Below, piece by piece: positions 17,152-35,324 of a stretch of 64,000 bases of DNA. Position 1 is the stretch's first letter, and every line of letters begins with the position of its first letter. The DNA is from Lepraria neglecta. Its lineage: Eukaryota > Ascomycota > Lecanoromycetes > Lecanorales > Stereocaulaceae. A program made the position numbers and the translations under genes. The stretch lies in assembly GCA_033220425.1 (NCBI GenBank), contig CM065646.1, positions 4,161,501 to 4,225,500 on the forward strand, in the 5' to 3' direction. A model generated the notes under the pieces. It did no database searches, was not told the origin of the DNA, and was given only the letters and a program-made list of their open reading frames with translations.

Positions 17152-19031
17152 TCAGACCGGGATCGCAGCCCCATCACCTCTAGGATCGCTGCCTGCACTG
17201 TATACATACCTCCCATCCTCAACATGACACCTAATAACCTGTCCCCTCCCAAACAAGCCCCTCTCAAACCCCTTCACAATCTCAACATCGTGTCCCATCC
17301 CCCTCAACGTCTCCGCCACATCCTCTCCAATACCATCCTCAAGGTACACCCTATGGAACACATTCCCCGCATCCGGCATACCAGCCCCAATACAGATCCT
17401 CGGCGCATCTAAGGCGGCCTGCGGATTATATTTGAACGCTAGCATGTTGAGGAGAACTTGTACGTGGCCCTGCGGCTGCATAAAGCCGCCCATAACTCCA
17501 TAGACAGTGTGGAGTGTGCCGTCGTCTGGGTTCGTGAGCATAGCTGGAATGATAGTATGGTATGGTCTCTTCCCCGGAGCGTAGACATTAGGATGTCCCT
17601 CATCCAACGAGAATCCCGCGCCGCGGTTTTGAAGCGTGAAGCCGCAGCCCTTAGGGATGATACAAGTACCGAAGCCGCCGAAATTGCTGTTGATGAAGGA
17701 GCAGCCGTTTCCTTCATTGTCTGTGGTAGCTAGGTAGACCGTATCGCATTGGTTGTGAGCTGGTGAGCCGTGCGTTAGGCGGTTTGATGATTTCTTCGGG
17801 TCGAACAATTTTGCGCGTTCGGCGAGGTATGGGCGAGCTATCATTTCTTTGGTGGGGACTTTAACGACGTTGGAGTCTGTGACGAACCAAGTTGCATCGG
17901 CGAAGCCGATTCGGAGGGCTTCTATAACGGCGTGCAGGTATTCGGCGCCGTTGTGGTCTTTCTCGGTGAAGGTGCGGATGACGCCGGTCTTCTCTAGTTC
18001 TTCAAGGATACCCAGAGCCATAAGAGCGACCATGCCTTGTCCATTGGGAGGGTGTTCCCAGATTTCGACACCGTGAGCGGGGGTGCTTTGGCTGGGTTGA
18101 CCGTCGAGGCCTTTGCTCTGGACGGCGCCTATGTTTTGGCCGTTGAATTTGAGGGAGACTGGTTCGGTGGGTTCGGTGCCTGTGTCGGCGTGGTATTTTA
18201 AATCCTCGAGTGTTATGTGTCCTCCTAGATCCTGCACCACTTTGACTAGCTCTTTCGCAACAGTGCCCTGGTAGAATCCTGGTTTGCCTTGTTTTGCGAG
18301 GAGACGGAACGTGTTGGCCAATGTTGGGTTTGACATGAGTTCGCCTGCTCGTGGGGCTCGCTTGCCGCCTTTTGCGTTGGGATCTGTTTTCAACATCTCG
18401 CCAAAGTTGGGGGAAGCGTGGCGGATCGTCTCTTCGCTGGCTCGCCACTATGACTGGTCAGTGTGAGTGGTTTCCCAGGATCGCTGTGTCTACTCACGAA
18501 TGCCGAAGCTAGCTCGGATACAGGGAATCCCTCTTCGCCGAGTTCAATCGCTGGTGTCAGGACGTCCTTCAGCGAGACCTTGCCGCTGCCAAATTTCTCA
18601 ACTGTGTCCACCCATCCAGCTGCAGCACCAGGAACCGTGACCGAGTGTACACTTGTCATGAGTATGGTACCCTTCTCCCCAGCCTTCAATCCCATGTCCT
18701 CTCTCATCTGCTCCAACGAACCTGTCCCTGAGGACCTGCCGGATCCATTCATCGCTTCCACCTTCTTCGTTTTGGCATTGTAGAATAAGCAGAACATATC
18801 TCCTCCGATACCGGTCGATGAAGGCTCCGTCATATTCAAGGCCGCAGCGACGGCTACGGCTGCGTCTGCTGCATTTCCTCCTGCTCTTAGTATTCTCTGG
18901 CCTGCCTGAGCAGCCAATGGCTGCGTGCACGCCACCATGCCATTGGCACTGTGAACGACACTGCGTCTACTAGGGTAAGAGATGAATTCTGGGTCTGAGG
19001 AGGGATAGATTGCAGAAGCATTGAGAGGCAT
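17152..19031 (-). CDS. Gamma-glutamyltranspeptidase-like Ntn-hydrolase
   Basis: Two exons, 19031-18498 and 18447-17152, joined by a 50-bp intron, give 609 aa. The N-terminal GGT block is clear: SANGMVACTQPLAAQAGQ, GGNAADAAVAVAAALN, EPSSTGIGGDMF and GSGRSS. The second half contains NGQGMVALMALGILEE and the autoprocessing segment NQCDTVYLATTDNEGNGCS. Thr at about residue 414 (in CDTVYL) is the expected nucleophile formed after self-cleavage. INSNFGGFG and GGFMQPQGHVQVLLN follow. The CDT-V-Y form resembles the YwrD/acylase-like branch more than classical glutathione-degrading GGT (GTTH). The substrate is therefore uncertain: gamma-glutamyl compounds or cephalosporin-like amides. No signal peptide is seen, so it is probably cytosolic. 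Confidence 0.9.
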
Positions 19032-30802: not shown

Positions 30803-32795
30803 ATGCTGTCTTCCAATCTAATTCCGGGGTTGCTTCTAGCTATTGCAGCAATTGCTGGGGTGCAAGCGGCTCCAGCACCAGCATCTGAGCTTACCGTACT
30901 AGAAAAACTACGCGCAATTCCACATGGTTGGCACCAGGGCCGTGCTCCTTCGGCGTCCCAGCGCCTTCGTTTCCGCATTGCTGTCAGGCAAGAGAACGCG
31001 TATGACTTCGAACAGCATGTTCTTGCTATAAGCGACCCTGACCACCCAAAGTATGGCCAACACATGAAGAGTAGCGAGCTCAAGGAGATGCTACGCCCCA
31101 GTGATCAAGCGTCCAGCGCGATACTGAACTGGCTTGACTCCCAGGGAGTACCGGCCGAGGACATTGAAAACAATAGTGACTGGATTAACTTCTTCGTTCC
31201 GGCGACCGAAGCAGAGCGCATTATGGACACCAAATTCTATTACTATTCGAATTCAATTACCAACATTGAGCGGATCCGTACCCTTCAATACTCGATACCG
31301 CAACACCTGCACCAGTACATTCAGATGATTCAGCCAACCACACGCTTTGGACAGATGCAGCCTCAGCGTTCAACCATCTATGAGCATTTCGACATCGGAC
31401 CATCGAGACAGTCACTTCATCAGTATCCCGGAGAGAGTCTCAATGCGACTTTCTGCAATACGACAATTACCCCTCAATGTCTCCGAGACCTCTATCACGT
31501 TGGAAATTTCCGAGGTAGCACTCATAATGGAGGAAGGATGGGTATCTGCGGCTACCTCAAAGAGTACGCCAAATTTGCCGACTTCGAAGCCTTCACCAAA
31601 GAGTATGCACCGTATGCCGCTAACGAGAACTTCACCTATGTCTTGATCAACGGCGGACTAGCGACTCAGGACGATACTGTAGACGACGACGTTGAAGCCA
31701 ATCTAGACGTTCAGTACGCGTATCCACTGTCTTACCCAACGCCAGGCTACTACTATAGCACTGGAGGCCTTGGCGAGCTTGTTCCGGACTTGGACCAGCC
31801 GAATCTGGCTGATGACCAGAATGAGCCCTATCTGGATTTTCTTCATTATATTCTGAGCCTGCCAGATAACGAGCTGCCAACGACTCTGACGACTTCGTAC
31901 GGTGAAGATGAGCAGAGCGTGCCCGAGGCATACACAAACCAGACATGTAGCTTGTTCGCCCAATTGGGTGCTCGAGGGGTATCGGTCCTGTTCTCTAGTG
32001 GGGATACTGGACCTGGATCAGCTTGTCAGACCAATGATGGGAATAAAACCACACGATTTCTTCCTATCTTTCCGGCTGCATGCCCATTCGTAACGTCAGT
32101 CGGTGGGACTTACCACGTTGAACCTGAGCGGGCTGTGGGATTTTCCTCCGGTGGTTTCTCTGATCGCTTCCCAAGACCTTCATATCAAGATGCAGCTGTG
32201 AAAGAATTTCTGGGTATTCTTGGGGATACCTGGAAGGGTCTTTATAATCCGAATGGTCGAGGGTTTCCGGATGTGTCCGCCCAGGCGTATAACTTTACGG
32301 TTATCGACCACGGCGCTGAGATTCGCGTAGGAGGAACCAGGTAAGAGACCCGCCTTCCTTTGCATTTTAACCTTTGGAGTTTGAATCTGCAGTGGTCTTG
32401 TCCGGTGGAGTTTTGCTGCTCTTCCGCCTGCTGCCCTTGGAATTAGCATATGCAACAAATTGCCTTGTAGAGTCTTGCCCGCTGACGACCTACCTAGCGC
32501 CGCCTCTCCTACATTCGCCGGAATCGTCTCTCTTCTCAACAGTGCTCGTCTTTCTGAAGGCCGCAAGCCTCTTGGCTTCCTGAATCCATTCATCTACAAA
32601 TACGGCTACAAAGGGCTGACAGACATCGTAAACGGTAAATCAAAAGGATGTACCGGTACTGACATCTATTCGGGGCTACCAGCCCCTTTCGTGCCGAACG
32701 CAGGCTGGTCTGCTGTGAGGGGCTGGGATCCGGTGACGGGGTATGGGACACCGAATTTTCCTGTTTTATTGGCTCTGTCCCAGGCTCAACGGTAA
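30803..32795 (+). CDS. Secreted sedolisin / tripeptidyl-peptidase (S53)
   Basis: Two exons, 30803-32340 and 32498-32795, give 611 aa. A signal peptide (IPGLLLAIAAIAGVQAAPAP) is followed by a pro-kumamolisin prosegment (about residues 30-200) with HPKYGQHM and NWLDSQGVP. The mature domain carries the catalytic pair Glu298 and Asp302 in VEANLD. The acidic oxyanion region is SSGDTGPGS, and the nucleophile is Ser513 in GGTSAASPTFAG, created exactly at the splice junction (AG|C). The C-terminal Ca2+-binding end is DIVNG...GWDPVTGYGTPN. These enzymes remove tripeptides at acid pH outside the cell. The intron is 157 bp, longer than most here, with a CTGAC branch motif before CTAG. The residues needed for activity are present. 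Confidence 0.93.
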
Positions 32796-33152
32796 GGGAT
32801 AAAGGGAAATGTAGGTAGAAATGGAATGGCTTTAGACAGACTTCCATAGATTAAGACATTGTGCATTTGCTCTCCTATGAATTCACCCTCTTCCCTTCTC
32901 CTCAACCACTTTGTGAAGCCCCTCAACGGTGATTGGCCCAAGTATCGTAGCAGGCACAGTGCAGAAAATAAGTTGGCCAAAAGATGTAGGAGAGCACCCT
33001 AATCTCGTACGGAGCTAGCGGAGAAAAGACTGACGTCAGTGATTGAATTGGATTGAAAGCCTTGGCACCAAAATTCTACCAAAAAAGCACCTTCAGGATG
33101 TCTATAATCATTAATATATAATAAAATAGCTATCTCCCCATCATTCCAGCAC
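32796..33152. other. Intergenic, no gene seen
   Basis: 3' region of the sedolisin gene and 5' flank of the tRNA gene. AT-rich just before the tRNA. Confidence 0.6.
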
Positions 33153-33170
33153 GTCTTCGTGGCGCAATTG

Positions 33171-33227
33171 GTAAGATAGCCCACGCTGGAATATTTCCGC
33201 AAACACCGCCCGCTGACTAGTTGTTAG
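33171..33227 (+). other. Intron 1 in tRNA-Asn (D loop, 18/19)
   Basis: 57 bp. Begins GTAAGA, has CTGAC at 33213-33217 ten nt before the end, and ends TTAG. This is the same layout as the spliceosomal introns of the surrounding protein genes. It splits the two invariant G residues of the D loop. Confidence 0.75.
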
Positions 33228-33236
33228 GTTAGCGCG

Positions 33237-33290
33237 GTATGCTACCCCCGTTACTCAAAGGACAGGGCTCATAAACTGACTCATTTATAG
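33237..33290 (+). other. Intron 2 in tRNA-Asn (26/27)
   Basis: 54 bp. Begins GTATGC, has CTGAC at 33276-33280, and ends TATAG. Placed between position 26 and the anticodon stem. Confidence 0.75.
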
Positions 33291-33309
33291 TCCGACTGTT
33301 AATCGGGAG

Positions 33310-33365
33310 GTATGTTTCAAAAACAACTATTATTATAATCATTGCGAAACTAATAGAATGAATAG
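33310..33365 (+). other. Intron 3 in tRNA-Asn (variable loop, 45/46)
   Basis: 56 bp. Begins GTATGT (the optimal fungal donor), has CTAAT at 33350-33354, and ends AATAG. Very AT-rich. Confidence 0.75.
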
Positions 33366-33396
33366 GTTGACAGTTCAATCCTGTCCGAGGACGATA

Positions 33397-33402
33397 TTTT
33401 TT
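33397..33402 (+). terminator. Pol III-type T6 terminator
   Basis: Six T residues start four nt after the tRNA discriminator base, followed by further T-rich runs to about 33436. This is the usual Pol III stop signal. Confidence 0.7.
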
Positions 33403-33660
33403 CTACTGGTTTTTTTGCTCTTTTTATTGTTTTTTGAACGGTATGGATGTGCGGGCTGTGTGGGGCTTGAAAGAGCCCTAACCCTACCTACGGACTCTGG
33501 ACTTCTGGGCGCAGTCAGAGTGCACACTTCAGTCGAAGAAAGGGCCAAGAAAAGTTTGCTTTGATGACTTAGAGTTTATTTAGACTATCTATCTATGTAC
33601 ATGTCCTCTCGAGCTCAATGCACGTCTGCTGCTTCTGCGACATCCGAGCTTCCTGACCCC

Positions 33661-35324
33661 TCACCTTGCCATCGTGTAATTCGACGTCCCACTCCCATCC
33701 GTGCAGGCAGTATCAGTAGTAAAACACCCCATCTCCGTCACACTATCAATCCTTCCTAGCATGAATTCTAGAAGCCTGTAGGAAGCCGACGGAGCATACT
33801 GAGGAATCATATGCCCACTCAAGCTGACTTCCACAAAGGTCAAACCTCGCTCCGTATGCGCTGTACCGAACACTCCCGCGCCAGCCAATGTGCTCGGATC
33901 CTCCTGTGTATGATAGGGCACGAAGAACTCGTCTGACGGCTTCGATGTAAAGCCTTGGGCGCCGTTCCATGTCATGTTCTGAATCATCAGGAGAGTTCCG
34001 TTGGCGATGAGAATATAGTCGAGCGCGCCATGTCCGATAATCGTCTTGTTCAAGCGTTCAATCACACCAGGTAGGACGGAAAGACCACTCGGCGGCGAAG
34101 TATCAGTACCTCCCACGAAGACATTGTTGTTCGTACATTCCATCCACATCTCCATCGGCGCGTTGATAGCTTTCTGCACATCGCTTCGATTGAAGTATAC
34201 CGACGCCCCAGCAGGTGTATAGTCGAAGGAGCCAGGAAAGCCTAGAACATCCCAGAGAAGAGGACATGTAGTTGCGATCTGATAGATGTCGAAGCAAGGA
34301 TTTATGAGGGACTCGGCAGCGAAGATGGCGTCCCATACGTCGCACTCGCCGGTTGTATCATTTGACTTTGGAGGATTGGGGAGAGGACCGGCGGGTGGGT
34401 AAACAAGGTAGTCGTTGAGGAAGGCTGTATAGCCACAGGTGTCGGCTTGATTGTGCAGGTAGTTCATGAAGGATGCGTTCAGGGAGAAGAGTGGTGCCCA
34501 GTAGTCTACGTAGGCGACGGCCGGGACTGAGGTGTGTTAGCAATGATACAGCTAGGAAATGGAGCGATCATACTCTGCATCTGAACAGCCTCTGTGCTGG
34601 TGCTTGGGTCATAGATCATGATTGCCTCGGCGTTGTAGTAAGTGGTATCGTTGGTGTTCAACATCGCATCGGCGATGTATGGCACGTAGTATCCTGCATA
34701 GCTCTCGCCCGTGATGTAGACCTTCCGATTATGTAAACCAAAGGTATCCACGAAGTTCTTGAAGAAGCCCAGGAACTGCGCAGCAACATCGGTCTCATCT
34801 GTAGCAGTCACGTTTCCTTGGGAGAAACCTGTCCCAACCGGCTGTTCCACCCAGACCATGTTCGTGAGATTTACCCAGGTCCAAGGATTCTTCACAGGCA
34901 GGAATGTGCCGTACTGCCATAGGAACGGTCCATTTTCTTGCAGTAGTCCTTCGAGAGAACTGCATCCGGGGCCACCATTCAACCAAATCGTGATCTCATC
35001 GTCGGCAGCTGGGTTCGTAGAAGGGAAGTACCAGAAGTAGAGCTCTCTGGTCTCGTTTGCGTTGGAGGAGATAGGTAGGAGCCCGGCATATGACTCGCCA
35101 ATATCGAAAGAGACATCTGGTATAGCAGTCCCATCGACGGCAAATTTTGAGGCATTGACGCTGGCTTGTCGTTTGTTCATTTGAGGGTAGTAATGATCCT
35201 CTGAGTGAGGCCTCGGTGCATTCCGTGGTGGAAGCACAGGCAAGGTTTTTCCAACATGCTGAGCGCTTCTGGCTGCAACAGCGCAGGCGGAGGCCAGAAC
35301 ACTGAGGTACGTAAGACCACGCAT
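33661..35324 (-). CDS. Secreted serine carboxypeptidase (S10)
   Basis: Two exons, 35324-34574 and 34526-33661, with a 47-bp intron, give 538 aa. The ATG at 35324 begins a signal peptide ([20 protein letters not shown]). A propeptide with a KR site (residues 51-52) follows. Conserved blocks: [41 protein letters not shown] and [13 protein letters not shown], with nucleophile Ser208. The catalytic Asp lies in [12 protein letters not shown] and His in [12 protein letters not shown]. Many N-glycosylation sequons support secretion. The enzyme removes C-terminal residues from peptides, usually in acid, vacuolar or extracellular settings. It is convergent with the sedolisin across the tRNA; shared regulation is possible but not shown. 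Confidence 0.93.

Follow-up and report, generated by a model that had tools for sequence, protein, structure and literature searches.

Introns of nuclear tRNA genes are attributed to a single enzyme system, which acts beside the anticodon. The mRNA type of intron is known from other non-coding RNA genes of fungi: it interrupts the U6 snRNA genes of Schizosaccharomyces pombe and other species, and Bhattacharya et al. 2000 reportedly described spliceosomal introns in the nuclear rRNA genes of lichen-forming and other ascomycetes. According to the accessible portions of two papers, spliceosomal introns occur in the rRNA genes of lichen fungi (PMC8527467, PMC6652019), and a 57-nt intron of Cladonia rRNA was spliced from yeast rRNA (PMC8527467). 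Non-canonical introns in eukaryotic tRNA genes are given as rare in the accessible part of a review, the nucleomorph examples measuring 3–24 nt (PMC4090602). No report of spliceosomal introns in tRNA genes was found in the literature searched (open-licence PMC papers, no preprints), and the accessible portions of PMC11386357, PMC11782384 and PMC13149111 do not mention such introns.

We analyzed a tRNA-Asn(GUU) locus in a stretch of 64,000 nucleotides from the lichen fungus Lepraria neglecta, hereafter the window. On the strength of its sequence, this locus is very probably a working nuclear gene that contains three U2-type spliceosomal introns, and it belongs to a set of similarly split tRNA genes spread over the genome. 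What we rate as new is the spliceosomal intron in a tRNA gene; ectopic ones in other non-coding RNA genes are already known. The canonical introns at position 37/38 share with these introns their place in nuclear tRNA genes, and they are found in this genome too, including in eight of the 15 split genes. However, they are removed by an endonuclease and a ligase, lie beside the anticodon only, and need no splice or branch signals. The fungal U6 intron is a closer parallel in that it is a spliceosomal intron in a Pol III gene, but it is a case of one intron in one snRNA gene, whereas we find 22 introns in 15 tRNA genes. Moreover, the U6 gene has three matches in this genome, all of them uninterrupted, which counts against our explanation. 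The bulge–helix–bulge introns of Archaea and nucleomorphs can likewise number several per tRNA and fall in the D and T arms. As far as the accessible text describes them, however, they are defined by endonuclease sites and measure 3–24 nt in nucleomorphs (PMC4090602), while the present introns are 47–63 nt long with the corresponding helix at one of 22 junctions. The lichen rRNA introns, as described in the accessible portions, match in fungal group, in the 57-nt size, in their mRNA-type signals and in having a non-coding RNA gene as host; they sit in Pol I repeats, whereas the present introns interrupt dispersed tRNA genes, many of which are apparently sole copies. The occurrence of spliceosomal introns in lichen rRNA, together with the splicing of the 57-nt intron in yeast, lends support to spliceosomal introns in tRNA genes, to the extent that the accessible part of the source reports it (PMC8527467).

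The tRNA-Asn(GUU) locus and its neighbours

The original prediction held that a complete 74-nt tRNA-Asn(GUU) arises from positions 33153–33393 of the forward strand once three GT–AG segments of 57, 54 and 56 nt are removed, and our analyses bear this out. The joined exons are called by ARAGORN as tRNA-Asn(gtt) of 74 bases with all four stems paired; when flanks are included, the acceptor stem gains one pair and the call extends to 76 bases. G18G19, U33, the T loop and G73 are all present, in agreement with the claim that the stems and invariant bases are intact. In the unspliced window, ARAGORN reports no tRNA and Rfam gives no match at the gathering score.

Exon 1 (33153–33170, 18 nt), delimited by a check of the joined form, runs to G18 and is followed in the D loop by intron 1 (33171–33227, 57 nt, GTAAGA...CTGAC...TAG). 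The remainder of the D arm is supplied by exon 2 (33228–33236, 9 nt), and intron 2 (33237–33290, 54 nt, GTATGC...CTGAC...TAG) falls at the boundary between the D arm and the anticodon arm. Exon 3 (33291–33309, 19 nt) forms the anticodon arm with the anticodon GTT, intron 3 (33310–33365, 56 nt, GTATGT...CTAAT...TAG) lies in the variable loop, and exon 4 (33366–33393, 28 nt) provides the T arm, the 3' acceptor strand and G73, all on the forward strand. The splice motifs that had been claimed for the three segments were thus read in the sequence. The insertion points, given as after positions 18, 26 and 45, are correct in conventional tRNA numbering and correspond to linear nucleotides 18, 27 and 46.

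Upstream of the gene, a TATA-like stretch at 33113–33128 on the forward strand, picked out by eye, may be a Pol III start element, and on the 3' side runs of six and seven Ts at 33397–33416 (forward strand, by sequence reading) resemble a Pol III-type terminator. The locus lies between two convergent peptidase genes, an S53 peptidase aligned to 32783 and an S10 peptidase ending near 33661. With these neighbours, the TATA-like stretch and the T runs, it therefore looks like an independent gene.

The segments had also been likened to the mRNA introns of the window, and three mRNA introns with the same signals confirm the likeness. Spliced alignment with three homologues each placed an intron in the S53 peptidase gene (32341–32497, forward strand, 157 nt, GTAAGA...CTGAC...TAG) and one in a gamma-glutamyltranspeptidase gene (18448–18497, reverse strand, 50 nt, GTGAGT...CTGAC...TAG). 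That of the S10 peptidase gene (34527–34573, reverse strand, 47 nt, GTATGA...CTAAC...CAG) was placed by eye, with Pfam S10 matches on both sides. The S53 protein matches one from Psora testacea at 77% and two further proteins at 88–89%, and the gamma-glutamyltranspeptidase matches one from Cladonia borealis at 84% and one further protein at 98%; these matches by themselves point to a lichen-forming member of the Lecanoromycetes as the most likely host. The S53 intron is three times as long as the other two mRNA introns and the tRNA introns.

Split tRNA genes across the genome

Our split-tRNA finder tests anticodon-loop-like positions for a cloverleaf and allows up to two GT...AG gaps of 40–130 nt per side; it uses GT...AG only and no further intron signal. 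A genome search for similarly split tRNAs, suggested together with the original prediction, revealed that the Asn gene is not a one-off in this genome of 42.0 Mb and 11 contigs. At least 14 further tRNA genes have the same build, giving a total of 15 genes with 22 GT–AG introns of 47–63 nt. The set comprises Asn, initiator and elongator Met, Ala, Trp, Thr, Phe, Gln and Pro, with two genes each for Glu, Arg and Leu; one Arg gene and one Leu junction are provisional.

The Rfam tRNA search gave 29 matches up to an E value of 10, with 63 of 1294 candidates scored, and six of the 29 became clean tRNAs once GT–AG segments were removed. These are initiator Met (L027, one intron after nucleotide 4), Ala(AGC) (L036, intron in the T loop), Trp (L038, intron in the T stem), Thr(TGT) (L032, two introns), Gln(TTG) (L033, intron after nucleotide 3) and the provisional Arg(TCT) (L034), whose D loop lacks the GG of G18G19. 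The Phe gene (L049, two introns) came from a pattern search. The first of two T-arm patterns had 2600 matches, and the three inspected among the 100 listed yielded one split gene, that of elongator Met (L088). The second had 23 matches, of which seven were known unsplit tRNAs and 16 were fetched, resolving into 10 other sites and six split genes: Glu(TTC) (L118), Pro(TGG) (L120), Glu(CTC) (L122), Leu(TAG) (L123), Arg(CCT) (L125) and a second Leu gene (L121 with L134). Among the 13 recognisable tRNA genes reached by this pattern, six are split and seven unsplit. The second Leu gene has four introns in 301 bp and was joined partly by hand, the finder's own best joins scoring 22.2 and 22.1; because its third junction is uncertain, so is its anticodon, read by ARAGORN as TAA. 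Both this hand-finished gene and the Arg(TCT) gene without G18G19 count against our explanation.

ARAGORN folds the joined forms into a full cloverleaf of the expected isotype in 15 of 15 cases, the second Leu gene in its partly hand-made join. Among the first nine genes taken unspliced, five received no call and four received wrong or partial ones. Across the set, the cuts fall in the acceptor, D, anticodon and T arms, with up to four introns per gene and internal exons as short as 5 and 9 nt. Joining restores G3:U70 in the Ala tRNA, which we take to be the alanine identity pair, and A1:U72 and A54 in the initiator Met tRNA, presumably initiator marks under the same identity rules. The Asn introns had been said to avoid the canonical 37/38 site, and this extends to the whole set, since none of the 22 GT–AG introns lies there. 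Canonical 37/38 introns of about 7–39 nt do occur in the genome, also in eight of the split genes themselves (elongator Met, Gln, both Glu, Pro, both Leu and Arg(CCT)), so that two splicing systems would act on one precursor.

Other searches added no genes: BLAST with fungal tRNA queries returned no candidates, a Pro arm pattern contained no tRNA in any of its eight matches, and none scored as tRNA among the five of 31 Ile arm matches and the 12 of 37 Val arm matches examined. Three of the 10 other sites reached by the second T-arm pattern have tRNA-like 3' ends. These 3' halves (L133 with L135 at G000:C8:1751510-1751990, L132 and L128), the first of which carries the C73 of Pro, were not accompanied by any convincing 5' half, and they are either more split genes or pseudogenes.

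The Asn core GACTGTTAATC has 11 matches in the genome, and the window locus is the sole tRNA among them; a plain Asn copy, which had been suggested as something to look for genome-wide, was not among these matches. The Phe core has 34 matches with one tRNA, and the initiator core has 13, which by eye are one tRNA, 11 stretches resembling a dispersed repeat and one unrelated site. Genome patterns of the exact cores thus gave a single tRNA each for Asn, Phe and initiator Met.

Several other tRNA-like sites were seen in the course of these searches. One Met tRNA, which has a different arm but resembles initiators in A1:U72 and A54, lies 6 nt behind a tRNA-Asp (G000:C4:1152178-1152249, minus strand, L021), and a Gly-like tRNA (G000:C8:2264667-2264737, minus strand, L030) is followed by a similar start at the same distance; both look like dispersed tRNA pairs. 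A dispersed repeat containing GGGCTCATAACCC recurs at L102–L108 and L110–L113 (for example G000:C1:3453851 and G000:C5:2826978). At L103 it adjoins a stretch similar to the 3' half of tRNA-His in reverse complement, which may be the primer site of a retrotransposon. Two Cys-like stretches with weak Rfam scores, 334 bp apart (L035 and L037, G000:C5:1909560 and 1909226), are probably decayed.

Splice signals and competing explanations

The splice signals of the 22 introns were compared with a background of 23,941 GT–AG segments of 46–63 nt, drawn from 39 fetched loci and from those parts of the window that lie outside the gene. A CTRAY motif 5–20 nt before the 3' end is present in 19 introns (background 5.0%, p = 2.8e-22), a YAG 3' end in all 22 (background 42.8%) and a GTRNG 5' start in 17 (background 11.5%, p = 1.7e-12). 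All three signals coincide in 16 of 22 introns compared with 0.41% of the background, giving a binomial p of 3.8e-34 that is approximate because the background segments overlap; for the first 13 introns alone, the count is 12 of 13 (p = 3e-28). In 17 of the 19 introns with CTRAY, the branch A lies 9–13 nt from the intron end. Three of 22 introns lack the strict CTRAY and have TTAAC or TTAAT 11–14 nt from the end instead, and five of 22 lack GTRNG; both shortfalls count against our explanation. No two of the first 13 introns share a match longer than 9 nt, and none is a copy of another; in 332 kb of fetched sequence they have no match above 14 nt besides themselves. A common origin of the introns was therefore not seen.

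We also asked where the cloverleaf itself would place each cut when the GT–AG rule is dropped, with the gene ends fixed, the other introns removed and the length kept within 3 nt. The GT–AG cut is among the best cuts for 18 of 22 introns, and it is the sole best in six (initiator Met, Trp, Thr intron 2, Gln, Pro and Leu2 intron 1). At the Asn locus, it is among the best for intron 1 and one of the two best for intron 2, while intron 3 is not fixed by the cloverleaf alone (30.8 compared with 31.1 for two other cuts). Asn intron 3 is one of four cases in which another cut is preferred, which speaks against our explanation; the others are Phe intron 1 (28.2 compared with 31.4), Arg(CCT) (30.5 compared with 30.8) and Leu2 intron 3 (29.2 compared with 30.5). 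For Phe intron 1, the cut was chosen over the finder's first choice so as to yield a TTGGGAG D loop, which we take to be that of other Phe tRNAs.

With three free gaps, many joins are permitted, and a score like that of the Asn locus, encountered genome-wide, would not alone exclude that so flexible a search had produced it by chance. We nevertheless give chance practically no credence. On both strands of the window, minus 400 bp at each end, the finder ranked the Asn locus on top with 26.6, ahead of a runner-up at 17.9, and its best score on one first-order Markov resample of the window was 15.4. At 48 anchor sites made up of Phe-core matches (30 of 34), Pro-like cores (8) and other Asn-core sites (10), 47 scored 16.8 or less, four of them without any solution, and the one exception, at 26.6, is the split Phe gene. 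The remaining four Phe-core matches reached 10.2 at most, and 24 control stretches of 601 bp reached 17.9. Moreover, the introns contain splice signals that the finder never used. The strict intron motif shows no excess over the window (22 occurrences compared with a mean of 32 and a maximum of 42 in 20 shuffles), which counts against our explanation, and the case therefore rests on the motif and the cloverleaf in combination. It is also very improbable that the split genes are decayed or transposon-interrupted pseudogenes beside intact copies that were missed. Such copies might lie beyond the 63 of 1294 Rfam candidates in the inventory and the exact cores used in the pattern searches, and Arg(TCT) and L133 do look imperfect; against this, joining the exons re-establishes pairing over the cut sites in 15 genes, the inserts share only short words (first 13 introns), and the Asn, Phe and initiator cores have no second tRNA, for which reason decay beside a plain copy was rejected.

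The remaining alternatives concern the machinery. Several introns per tRNA and introns in the D and T arms are on record for the bulge–helix–bulge kind, as far as the accessible part of the source goes (PMC4090602), and the host genome uses the endonuclease system at position 37/38. The introns might then be non-canonical ones of the endonuclease kind, such as occur in Archaea and in the nucleomorphs of algae, with cutting and ligation at several sites. In a relaxed register, evaluated without a control, a complete 4-bp helix is seen at five of the first 13 junctions. The strict 4-bp central helix, however, occurs at one of 22 junctions, about the chance level of (6/16)^4 per junction. Bulge–helix–bulge structures at all three Asn junctions had been named beforehand as the observation that would point to the endonuclease instead of the spliceosome, and a helix at a single junction of 22 does not do so; the endonuclease also leaves the GT, the branch motif, the YAG and the mRNA-like lengths of 47–63 nt unexplained, and we reject this origin on the strict count as exceedingly improbable. 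Group I and group II introns were rejected as well: at 47–63 nt the segments are too short for either, and Rfam found no family besides tRNA or U6 in the window and 12 loci. If the introns are spliceosomal, the transcripts could still be capped products of Pol II from which the tRNAs are cut out later, which we consider unlikely. Spliceosomes normally act on Pol II transcripts, and introns interrupt the A box in the Asn, Thr, Phe and both Leu genes and the B box in the Ala and Trp genes. These interruptions count against our explanation, and the genes concerned may therefore lean on upstream elements. On the other side, a run of at least five Ts follows within 35 bp in 13 of the 14 genes with flank (Gln has only four Ts, and Glu(TTC) is not among the 14), and no run of five Ts occurs inside the 22 introns (shuffle mean 2.99, P of none 0.037). 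By eye, the A/T-rich stretches upstream are alike in split and unsplit tRNA genes. The T runs, the T content of the introns and the flanks favour Pol III without proving it, and Pol II appears not to be required, since a lichen intron was spliced from yeast Pol I rRNA according to the accessible part of the report (PMC8527467).

A proposed processing route and its consequences

Under our preferred explanation, spliceosomal introns in Pol III transcripts, RNA polymerase III would start downstream of the TATA-like element, transcribe exons and introns together, and stop at the 3' T run. The spliceosome would read the 5' splice site, the CTRAY branch point and the YAG end of each short intron, excise it by intron definition, and join the exons in the nucleus. 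The cloverleaf would fold only after splicing, and RNase P and tRNase Z would then trim it into what is presumably a functional tRNA. Among the split genes, every one of the four arms is interrupted at least once, so the exons should be joined before the RNA folds and its ends are trimmed. In the genes with an additional 37/38 intron, tRNA endonuclease and ligase would remove that intron, presumably later; since the endonuclease recognises the folded tRNA body, this step should follow the spliceosomal one.

The recurrence of this build suggests a second nuclear tRNA-splicing route, a reading that we consider likely. The spliceosome would be needed for a large part of the tRNA set in Lepraria neglecta, and perhaps in related lichen fungi, including the apparently sole standard-build Asn, Phe and initiator Met genes, with a relay between spliceosome and endonuclease in some. 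Several of the split genes escape ARAGORN and Rfam or are called wrongly by them, so that the number of tRNAs may be underestimated in genomes of this kind. Our findings would open the way to studying whether spliceosomes act on Pol III transcripts at scale, how the precursor is handled before it folds, how non-coding genes acquire introns, and whether translation in lichens is throttled jointly by the introns of rRNA and tRNA. If the proposed route is correct, translation capacity in this fungus would depend on spliceosome capacity, a dependence that could contribute to the slow growth and the tolerance of stress that have been proposed as effects of the rRNA introns of lichens.
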